From Crambe crambe (Eukaryota; Porifera; Demospongiae; Poecilosclerida; Crambeidae), in the NCBI GenBank assembly GCA_963924555.1, contig OZ004587.1, positions 7,084,075 through 7,148,074 of the forward strand: a stretch of DNA of 64,000 nucleotides. Direction: 5' to 3'. This document shows, in pieces, positions 42,436 to 48,934 of the stretch. Position 1 is the stretch's first letter; each line of letters starts with the position of its first letter. The notes below the pieces were generated by a model. The model was not told the DNA's origin and made no database searches. It saw only the letters and a program-made list of their open reading frames with translations. The translations under genes were made by a program, and so were the position numbers.

Positions 42436-43803
42436 TCATGATTTAATACGTCCTAAGGAACTGCCCTTTTTAGCAGGAGAAACATCACCCTGTCCCCCCT
42501 TGGACCTTCCAATGAGACTGTGACTATGAGACTTAGGACGTGAGGTCATCACAGGGGAGGATTGCAGTCGAGAGGATCTCGTACCAACAATATCGTCATC
42601 GTGAGTGGAGTCGTTTGATTGGTGGGCAGGGCTTGATTTGGCACTATTAGAAGGGGTGTGGTGATTAGGGAGAGGTGGGGGACTGGCGCTGTAGGAGGGG
42701 GAGCGTGCAGGGGGCAGTCTGGGAGGGGAGTCGGAGTTCTTCCTTTGAGGAGATTTTTCAGAAGGGTCGAGGACATAGTATAAATGTCCACTTGGAGTGA
42801 TCTCTTGGTGGGAGACGGAAGCAGCTGGAAGATAGAGCAATAACCAGTATCTTTTTAATGAGTATTTTACCCTAACAAACATTGATCTAAAGCTAAGTTC
42901 AAGTTTTGCTATAGGGCTTGTATCAAAAAAAAACAACTGCATTATTAATTTTACTCACAGTTGGTTCCTCTGGCTACTTCACTCCCATTGACAGGTGTGT
43001 CCTGTGCAGGTCCACCTTCAGATGACGAAGGCAAGGACTCCAACACAGAAATAGTGGGTGCCGTCTCTGAAATATCTTCATAGATCCTCTCTTCTATACT
43101 GCTGACTTTAGGCTTGGACTTTTTATGATCTGCAAATTAAAATTTGTATACTGAGATGTAAGTATCATTAAATGTAGATCTATGGAGCCCCCTGCTTAGA
43201 GACTGCAATAGTCTACATTGCATTTTGACACCACAACAAACAAACAAATAAACTGGAAATTTTCCAAATAAAGCACACCATTGAGAGTAGTCATTTTATC
43301 CTTTATAGAGAGGTTGTCATCTCTCAGAGCTGATAAAGAACGTATGAGCAGTCATAGCTACTTGTACAATAGCTAAATATTCAAAGGTTTGTCTCTTTCC
43401 TTATTGGATGGTTCCAGTGTATAATAACTTACTCTATACAGAACAAAACTGGAAATGTACCTTTATTGACAACTGCATACATGCGTTCAATATCCTCCTG
43501 ACTCAACTCTGTGCCTTTAGAGCCCTTTGGACTAGTCTCTTTTTCTTCTTTCCTTACAGCCTCCTCACTTTCAACCTTTTCCTCTTTCTTTACAGCCTCC
43601 TCACTTTCATCTTTCTTCACAACCTCCTCACTTGCAACCTTTTCCTCTTTCTTTTCTGCCTCCTTTTCTCCTGCACCATTGCTGGTTGAGGAGGACTTAG
43701 TGGTGGGAGCAGAGGAAGAGGTCGGAGCTGGACTGGCAGGGACACTCTCATTACCAACACTCACCGTAAGTTCCCCTTTCTCCAGCTGCTGCAAACACTC
43801 CTC
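42436..43803 (-). other. Kinase C-terminal tail exons
   Basis: Three exons (43461-43803, 42959-43129, 42436-42872) encode ~316 residues. First comes an E/K-rich block with repeats of the type EEAVKKEEKVESEEAV, then a short exon with IEERIYEDISET, then a Ser/Pro-rich basic end with HLYYVLD. The tyrosines in YEDI and YYVL are plausible phosphosites or SH2-binding sites (inference). This tail is the part copied repeatedly through the cluster. Confidence 0.75.
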
Positions 43804-46800: not shown

Positions 46801-48934
46801 ATTAGAAGGTCACATGACATCATAGTATACTCCTGTATACCCCCGTATATCCCTGTATACCTCTGTATATCCCTGTATACCCCAGTCTGTATAGCCCAGT
46901 ATATCCCTGTATAGCCCAGTATATCCCTGTATACCCCCAGTATATCCCTGTATACCCCAGTATATCCCTGTATACCCCAGTATATCCCTGTATACCCCAG
47001 TATATCCCTGTATACCCTACCTTTTCTCTTTTGTACTCAATCCTAGTGACATCGCACACTATTTTGAGCCACACCTCCAGGTCATTCCTACATAACAAAT
47101 AAGTGACTTAATGAATTGCAGTGACTACAGATGACTCTTATAAATGAAAATATATTCCCAATAATATCTAATCATAATCATAAACATCATGTCAATATTA
47201 TCTTGAGATCTCTCTATCAACACTTGAAATCTCAAAAACAACAGCAGCAGTCCAACTCAACAATGCAATTCTTCTATTTTATCTGGTCAACTTTTGCCCC
47301 ATTTATCTTGTCCAAATTCACTATTGGGCTAAGAAATTTTTGAGGTCTTGATTTATTTTAATTGTCATGATGGAAAATTAATCACATGTGAATTTAATTA
47401 CTTCTTACAAAAAGCTAATTACAATAACAACCAAAATAGATTAACATGAACATGGATTAACATTCCCCATAATAAACAGTCACGAAATATGCTTACTCAG
47501 CAAATCATGACTGCTTAGAAAAAAATAAAGGAGAAATGACCGATCCGATTGATTAAGAGAACCCTCAGGTACTACAGTGCAACCAAAAAAAGTTGTGGGG
47601 TCTAATTTCGAGGGAAAAAATTGAAGTGTATTAATTTTTGAAATTTTTCCCATGAAAATTTCCCGCCTATATTATTACCACCTTCTTGCAAGCACTGGAT
47701 TGGAACTCACGCTGTGTCTGTGTTGAGAATGAGTTGCTTCGACCCTTTCATCTTCAGCGTGAAGCAGTGAGGGTGCTTTGGGTGGTCGAACATCCTCGTG
47801 ATTCCCCGGATGGCCGAGAGCTCGATCTTCTCCCTCTTCATGATGTGCTTCTCCTTTCGGTTGTCCACGTAGAAAGAGATGGAGGGAAGCTTTGAAGGGT
47901 TTGACGTGCCATTCATCACTGCCCACCCTCGCTCCAGCTGTTTGTTAGGCTGAAAGGAGAGAGAGAGAGAGAGAGTTTTACAAAATTAAAAGAACACCTA
48001 GGCCTAACAAATAAGATTACAAAGGAACTAATGATTAACACTGCTAAAGGAGCCATTAATGAATCTTTCTTGATCTGGAAAGCCAGAAATAACAGAACAC
48101 AGTGACATTACCATGTTCATCATGCTTCACTGCCCCCCCCCCCCCCCCCCTCTTTAATTCTTATTTTATTTTTGTGTGCGCCAGGTAATTGTGCATGGCT
48201 GTCGTCAGGCCATTTGACAAAATGATCCTGGAATAACTCACCCCTCATTTGTATTCACCACAAATCAAATGAAGAGTTATATATATATATTGAGAGGGGG
48301 GGGGGGGGGGGGGGGGGGGGGGAAAGATGAATTTATTTATTTTGATCATAAGCTGATGAAACATATACAGTTTACAAGATGAACCATCAAATTTAAAAGT
48401 GTGTTTTTGAAAAACATGGTGGACACCTCTCAACGACAGATACTTTTGGGACCTGAGAAGAAAGTGTCCTGATTGAGAGATGTGTTTTTAATTGCAGGAG
48501 TGAATTGACACACACATCTAATGAGGTTTATTAAAGAGGTATTTTCACATCTAAATTGCAGTGGGAAAATTGCAGTGGGACAGAGGAAAGTGTCCTGATT
48601 AGAAAGCTCTGTCCTGATTAGAGAGGTGTCCTCATTTCAGGGGTGAATTAATACGCATCTATATTGCAGTGGGACAGAGAAAAGTGTCCTGATTAGAGAG
48701 GTGTCCTGATTTCAGGGGGTGAATTTACGTATAACATTATTATTGCTATGAGACGAGAAAAGTGTCTTGATTGAGGGAGTTCTCAAGCTCTTAGAGATAG
48801 TGTTCCACTTACTGCTGGTTTGCTGTTGAACAAGCCTGCCTTCTTGCTCTTGAAGAGTGTCAGCCATCCCTCCCTCAACACCGTCCTACCGTCCAGCGTC
48901 ATGGAGTACGCCCCCTGCTCGTTACCCAGCCTTG
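42436..48934 (-). CDS. PH-WWE-WWE tyrosine kinase, 5' end not found
   Basis: Sixteen exons were assembled by hand: 48814-48934, 47711-47949, 47021-47087, 46556-46775, 46405-46433, 46037-46271, 45648-45829, 45403-45481, 45097-45220, 44700-44849, 44518-44616, 44164-44418, 43952-44027, 43461-43803, 42959-43129 and 42436-42872. All junctions are GT-AG and the phases agree from first to last, giving 941 residues and a stop at 42436. Order: PH (~20-142), WWE1 (143-207), micro-exon linker, WWE2 (226-298), Pro/Ser linker, kinase (~350-625), tail (626-941). No SH2, SH3 or transmembrane segment is visible, so it is probably cytoplasmic or membrane-recruited through PH. The start codon is upstream of 48934 and was not identified. 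Neighbouring partial copies derive from this gene. Confidence 0.85.
44029..44101. repeat. (GA)n microsatellite in kinase intron
   Basis: About 36 GA units immediately next to the acceptor of the subdomain XI exon (minus strand CT-rich tract). Confidence 0.95.
44874..45086. repeat. Long (GA)n microsatellite
   Basis: About 213 bp of uninterrupted GA inside the intron between the helix C exon and the next kinase exon, ending ~10 bp from the donor at 45096. Confidence 0.97.
46037..46775 (-). other. Tandem WWE domains
   Basis: WWE1 (46556-46775) begins VIWEYYDGGLW, continues IEGHY, and ends with HYNLNNM, a threonine and HRIKR. WWE2 (46037-46271) begins ALWEWGEESKDQW, then IQIEDMY, LLDLHDMKLVNFRT and YNLRR. 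Both show the family's conserved W-x-W/Y...W...IE..Y core and the closing M..N/H..T...R...R pattern. A 29-nt exon (46405-46433, VVHRKMIDLP) joins them and is needed to keep frame. In PARPs, RNF146 and HUWE1-type ligases, WWE domains bind ADP-ribose or iso-ADP-ribose. Confidence 0.82.
46826..47018. repeat. ~20-bp intronic minisatellite
   Basis: About 9-10 units of GTATATCCCTGTATACCCCA between the PH-end exon and WWE1, orthologous in position to 26840-27090. Confidence 0.9.
47021..48934 (-). other. PH domain exons
   Basis: Three exons (48814-48934, 47711-47949, 47021-47087) give REGWLTLFKSK, RGWAVM, ISFYVDNRKEK, CFTLKMKG and a closing helix NDLEVWLKIVCDV with the invariant PH tryptophan. Length and pattern fit a pleckstrin-homology domain. 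Lipid preference cannot be read from the sequence. Confidence 0.75.
48133..48322. repeat. Poly-C and poly-G runs
   Basis: An 18-base C run (48133-48150) and a 27-base G run (48296-48322) lie ~145 bp apart in the PH intron. They could form G-quadruplex/i-motif structures, and their lengths may be imprecise in assembly. Confidence 0.9.

Follow-up and report, generated by a model that had tools for sequence, protein, structure and literature searches.

Does the sponge Crambe crambe encode a tyrosine kinase that carries WWE domains, and would such a kinase read ADP-ribose? This question is raised by a locus within a 64,000-nucleotide stretch of the 143-Mb genome (assembly GCA_963924555.1, contig OZ004587.1; C10:7084075-7148074), which is referred to here as the window and is numbered from its first base. 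A reading made from the DNA letters alone, referred to here as the sequence-only reading, had proposed a 16-exon gene between 42436 and 48934 in which a PH domain and two WWE domains are combined with a tyrosine kinase. The span matches, and the strand, which had not been given, was found to be minus (48930..42436). The model comprises 16 exons and 15 introns, the latter all GT-AG and 83 to 863 bases long, and a single open frame spans all the exons and ends at a TGA stop; the frame-consistent gene that had been described was thus borne out by a phase-consistent model. The predicted protein has 915 residues from the ATG at 48902, or 924 when the nine open residues before this first ATG are counted, and the extra residues of the 941-residue protein proposed earlier were not reproduced. 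The sequence context around the ATG is weak. Because exon 1 is directly preceded by an in-frame stop and an acceptor-like AG, the gene may have a further short 5' exon, and its 5' end is uncertain. Judged from its sequence, the predicted PH-WWE-WWE-kinase gene is real.

The domains of this architecture were all matched by Pfam profiles over their cut-offs. The PH domain was matched at residues 9 to 123 with an E value of 1.6e-6 and 29.0 bits, compared with a cut-off of 25.1. When the WWE exons were searched alone, the exon at 46775-46556 matched PF02825 with an E value of 5.1e-6 and 27.2 bits and the exon at 46271-46037 matched it with an E value of 5.4e-9 and 36.7 bits. Both scores exceed the curated cut-off of 21.1 bits and place both exons in the WWE family. 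Absence of a WWE match had been named in advance as the profile-search result that would overturn the architecture, and a match was found for each of the two exons. The kinase matched PK_Tyr_Ser-Thr at residues 342 to 615, over the cut-off and with an E value of 2e-81. A scan against NCBIfam gave only matches below the cut-off. Each WWE domain is contained whole in its own exon, and domain shuffling is the probable origin of the PH-WWE-WWE-kinase join. The PH domain, an assignment made from the Pfam match only, may bind phosphoinositide.

The kinase of the 915-residue model contains the motifs GEGAFG (residue 348), VAVK (374), FLREAK (Glu 398), HRDLAARN (476), DFG (500), WMALE (526), and DDRPSF (603), and the earlier description of an intact glycine loop, Lys, Glu, HRDLAARN, and DFG was confirmed in every part. 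The profile match, the catalytic Lys and Glu, the HRD and DFG Asp residues, and the tyrosine-type HRDLAARN motif identify the domain as a protein tyrosine kinase. ALK, RET, AXL, ABL, and TRK were among the best 60 of 846 solved-structure matches to the kinase; the highest score among these 60 belonged to an EGFR chain that holds two kinase copies, each of which scores lower singly. The protein therefore resembles ALK/RET/AXL/TRK-type receptor tyrosine kinases in its catalytic domain and yet differs from them in carrying PH and WWE domains in front and in having no membrane-spanning stretch by hydropathy. The maximal 19-residue hydropathy in the 915-residue model was 1.29 and lay inside the kinase, whereas a control, a hydrophobic segment that precedes a putative receptor kinase in our reading of open frames of the same genome, reached 3.32. 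Assignment as a receptor tyrosine kinase was rejected on the basis of hydropathy, for a model whose 5' end is uncertain. Assignment to the Tec family, which shares an N-terminal PH domain and a C-terminal tyrosine kinase according to the available part of PMC8662651, was also rejected, since neither SH3 nor SH2 was found between the PH domain and the kinase in a Pfam scan at E values up to 1. The tail behind the kinase contains five tyrosines (724, 746, 802, 803, and 831), three of which are in Yxx[VIL] settings. The tail motifs YAVV, YEDI, and YYVL presumably resemble SH2 sites.

In the solved WWE complexes covered by the available sections of PMC11269756, the adenine receives two hydrogen bonds from a conserved Gln and is stacked by Trp or Tyr, and the proximal phosphate is held by a conserved Tyr and Arg; the pocket trio of HUWE1 is Tyr1658, Gln1667, and Arg1676. 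The trio was assigned through the HUWE1 residue numbers named in that source, using an alignment of 27 WWE domains that comprised the two of the kinase and 25 of the 26 others in the genome (one short fragment was left out). The alignment columns are fixed, because the spacing of the trio (9 and 9 residues) agrees with that of the HUWE1 chain. Of the other domains, 23 cover every site of the trio; 19 of these retain Tyr, Gln, and Arg, a count that includes some near-identical duplicates and hence domains that are not independent. At unchanged spacing, the corresponding residues of the kinase are Phe, Arg, and His in the first domain (WWE1) and Phe, Leu, and Tyr in the second (WWE2). The contacts that define ADP-ribose holding, Gln to the adenine and Tyr and Arg to the phosphate, are thus missing from both WWE domains of the kinase, in a genome in which most others retain them, and this finding speaks against the suggestion that the kinase is recruited or activated by ADP-ribose. 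Since both domains have lost the ADP-ribose-holding residues, an unusual signaling kinase with a protein-binding module is likelier than a damage sensor.

The tandem WWE structure of DTX1 (8r5n) was the sole solved structure below an E value of 0.01 for the WWE pair in a single-sequence search, and the alignment spans both WWE domains and the linker (E value of 0.0038 for the chain and 0.011 for the stretch). DTX1 has two consecutive WWE domains, as does the kinase. It differs in that the trio is visible in both of its domains, whereas it is lost from both pockets of the kinase gene, and in that the WWE domains studied here are joined to a kinase. Neither a RING nor a Deltex C-terminal (DTC) domain was found in the Pfam scan of the kinase protein, and Deltex membership was rejected for this reason. 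Among the solved chains, five of the 15 matched were aligned, and Tyr, Gln, and Arg were seen in both DTX1 domains, TRIP12, HUWE1, and RNF146. In a further Deltex protein, 2a90, the second domain has the trio and the alignment of the first ends short of the Arg.

We consider it fairly likely, from sequence comparison, that the gene encodes a functional soluble non-receptor tyrosine kinase in which the tandem WWE pair serves for protein interaction or intramolecular regulation rather than for canonical reading of ADP-ribose. Such a kinase would have a PH domain at its N terminus, followed by a tandem WWE pair like that of Deltex, a catalytic domain resembling those of receptor tyrosine kinases, and a long tyrosine-bearing tail. 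Through its PH domain the kinase would be located to a membrane or scaffold, the WWE pair would bind partner proteins or regulate the kinase intramolecularly, and phosphorylation of the activation loop and tail would then recruit SH2 proteins. In Deltex, the WWE domains bind Notch ankyrin repeats. WWE domains are often part of proteins that act in ADP-ribosylation or ubiquitination (PMC4245714, available sections), and human WWE proteins include PARPs and E3 ligases (PMC11269756, available sections). A tyrosine kinase with tandem WWE domains would show that domain shuffling has also linked the WWE module to phosphotyrosine signaling. Since neither copy retains these contacts, it would also be a natural test case for a WWE role beyond the usual reading of ADP-ribose.

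Several observations weigh against this assignment of domains and function. The genome-scale WWE search listed the WWE domain of exon 6 and not that of exon 4, and the PH domain of this gene, encoded across three exons, was missing from the 74 matches of the genome-scale PH search. The match to PH is modest, with an E value of 0.12 for the best of three solved chains listed, and single-sequence structure prediction was poor, with mean predicted local distance difference test (pLDDT) values of 56.4 and 40.1 for the two WWE exons. In the pocket, the adenine-stacking aromatic is kept, as Tyr in WWE1 and Trp in WWE2; WWE2 has equivalents of HUWE1 Asn1669 and Thr1672, of which WWE1 has the Thr only; and in WWE2 the residue preceding the site of the lost Arg is itself an Arg. 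The trio is also incomplete in four of the 23 other WWE domains, and DTX1, the closest solved WWE pair, binds poly(ADP-ribose) (PAR) with a dissociation constant (Kd) of 340 nM (PMC11269756, available sections). Because the Asn, Thr, and nearby Arg of WWE2 and the stacking aromatics are kept, the pocket is compatible with weak or altered nucleotide binding. A tandem WWE pair that binds poly- or mono-ADP-ribose and so brings the kinase to stress sites or releases it there would be in keeping with the stacking aromatic and with the resemblance to DTX1, a binder of ADP and PAR, and the signal itself probably exists, since the genome has WWE-PARP and RNF146-like RING-WWE open frames; the lack of the adenine Gln and the phosphate Tyr and Arg in both domains nevertheless makes gating by ADP-ribose quite unlikely. 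The pocket could also have been rebuilt for a different small ligand, either another nucleotide or a phosphorylated compound, with the kinase as its sensor. This would explain a profile match over the Pfam cut-off and a stacking aromatic kept while the polar contacts changed, and WWE1 and WWE2 are altered differently, but no ligand is indicated and disuse also gives contact loss, and we regard a rebuilt pocket as unlikely. It is likewise doubtful that the kinase is gated directly by a WWE-held nucleotide through rebuilt polar contacts that read ADP-ribose unusually or read another phosphorylated ligand; if true, a nucleotide-gated kinase would couple tyrosine phosphorylation to nucleotide or stress signals.

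Other explanations concern the locus itself. The WWE and kinase exons might come from two genes that a faulty gene model or assembly merged, the region being duplicated and rich in repeats: it does hold scrambled copies, and introns 9 and 12 contain long runs of (AG)n. However, exons 1 to 16 are ordered and in phase with the introns described above, and exons 1, 2, and 7 to 10 have no second match within the window that covers 35% or more, leaving such an artefact most improbable. The plainly broken neighboring copies are what would be expected around a decaying or unexpressed, functionless member of a duplicating array, a possibility that we consider very unlikely given an open frame that continues through 16 exons with intact catalytic motifs. 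A soluble kinase with a WWE protein-interaction module is the reading that we favor over these explanations.

The remainder of the genome was searched for related genes with intron-blind searches, the counts of which are lower bounds. A search with residues 1 to 625 gave 76 matches (881 candidates, 70 scored). Among the matches listed, those to the PH and WWE parts fall only within the window, kinase matches elsewhere are 33 to 61% identical, and there is no second complete copy of the gene. At C16 4.98-6.05 Mb, kinase-domain matches form a large array, and many of them lie in single long open frames. Among at least 121 cysteine-protease matches, two cathepsin-like genes inspected for silicatein, a sponge marker, both have the usual Cys, which does not bear on sponge origin. 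The WWE family search gave at least 28 matches, comprising WWE2 of this gene, one in the broken copy, and 26 elsewhere, and 17 stretches of 9.9 kb were taken around these 26. A kinase search of the 17 stretches gave one match, 24% identical, beside a RING-WWE frame and on the opposite strand. When 16 WWE open frames were scanned with Pfam at E values up to 0.001 (the seventeenth stretch was left out), WWE was found with PARP in 10 (some with a macro domain), with RING in one, with a macro domain in one, and alone in four; a kinase was found in none of the 16. The WWE-PARP and RNF146-like RING-WWE frames resemble the kinase gene in having a WWE domain, sometimes in tandem, and differ in that the partner is PARP, macro, or RING rather than a kinase and in that most keep the trio. 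One stretch (L009, 4649-5335, minus) holds an RNF146-like RING-WWE open frame with the full pocket trio. Two others (L023 and L024) contain WWE domains that closely resemble each other, accompanied by PARP in one case and by a macro domain in the other. Both have Leu and Glu at the sites of the pocket Tyr and Gln, and partial pocket loss is thus seen a second time in this genome.

Sponge PARP14-like proteins carry macro domains and some also carry WWE domains, as in this genome, according to the available part of PMC4245714. A WWE kinase was not found in full-text literature searches as judged from titles and the starts of abstracts, with subscription papers outside their scope. The available part of the holozoan tyrosine-kinome paper PMC8662651 has a count of zero for "WWE," and that of PMC4245714, a survey of ADP-ribosylation systems, mentions no WWE kinase. 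The claim of the sequence-only reading that no WWE tyrosine kinase has been described is consistent with the literature searches and the zero count in PMC8662651, neither of which is proof. Within the literature and this genome, with proteins of other species outside the comparison, PH-WWE-WWE-kinase is probably a new combination.

Exons of the PH-WWE-WWE-kinase gene and its partial copies in the window
Feature	Position	Strand	Content
Exon 1	48813..48930	-	ATG at 48902-48900, first PH strand; donor GTAAGT
Exon 2	47711..47949	-	PH domain core; sole match among those listed in genome search
Exon 3	47021..47087	-	C-terminal part of PH
Exon 4	46556..46775	-	Whole WWE domain 1; pocket trio Phe/Arg/His
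Exon 5	46405..46433	-	29-nt micro-exon; linker joining WWE domains
Exon 6	46037..46271	-	Whole WWE domain 2; pocket trio Phe/Leu/Tyr
Exon 7	45648..45829	-	Pro-rich linker and kinase glycine loop GEGAFG
Exon 8	45403..45481	-	Kinase VAVK lysine
Exon 9	45097..45220	-	Kinase helix C glutamate (FLREAK)
Exon 10	44700..44849	-	Middle part of kinase
Exon 11	44518..44616	-	Kinase HRDLAARN and DFG
Exon 12	44164..44418	-	Kinase activation loop and WMALE
Exon 13	43952..44027	-	Kinase end (DDRPSF)
Exon 14	43461..43803	-	Charged KEEK-rich tail, Tyr 724 (YAVV)
Exon 15	42959..43129	-	Tail, Tyr 746 (YEDI)
Exon 16	42436..42824	-	Pro/Ser-rich tail, Tyr 802, 803 (YYVL) and 831; TGA stop
Broken, scrambled kinase-gene copy	23968..28166	-	Matches to exons 11 and 12 (part) upstream of exons 3-6, then 13 (two pieces), 14, 15, 16
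3' partial copy	35771..37352	-	Exons 13-16; exon 14 base-identical over 343 bases

The kinase gene is the single complete copy found in a duplicated region that it shares with TRIM-type frames. In the scrambled copy, exons 1, 2, and 7 to 10 are not represented by any match of at least 35% coverage, and fragments of the tail of the gene also mapped elsewhere in the window. The base identity of exon 14 in the 3' partial copy suggests a very recent duplication or gene conversion. Four long minus-strand open frames (15212-17497, 21282-23489, 33100-35301, and 39768-41984) have matches to RING, B-box, filamin, and NHL in a TRIM-type layout; these are interspersed with the kinase copies, and more similar fragments lie between them.

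Simple repeats are also present around the gene. Runs of (AG)n or (CT)n were seen at 44031-44100 (intron 12) and 44874-45085 (intron 9), and near the duplicated exon 13 at 37382-37415 and 25566-25627, with the run of the 3' copy preceding its exon 13; long runs of this kind are possible rearrangement points. Intron 3 of the kinase gene contains a 20-base minisatellite, AGTATATCCCTGTATACCCC, at 46824-47017. Upstream of the gene, 93-base tandem repeats at 50460-51007 and 53961-54303 apparently belong to one family in opposite orientations. Open frames of at least 75 residues in 48936-64000 were listed, and two of them were scanned with Pfam. One had no match, and the other, at 58866-59501 (plus), is part of a kinesin gene (E value of 1.8e-22), which lies on the opposite strand and is the first gene recognized upstream of the kinase gene.

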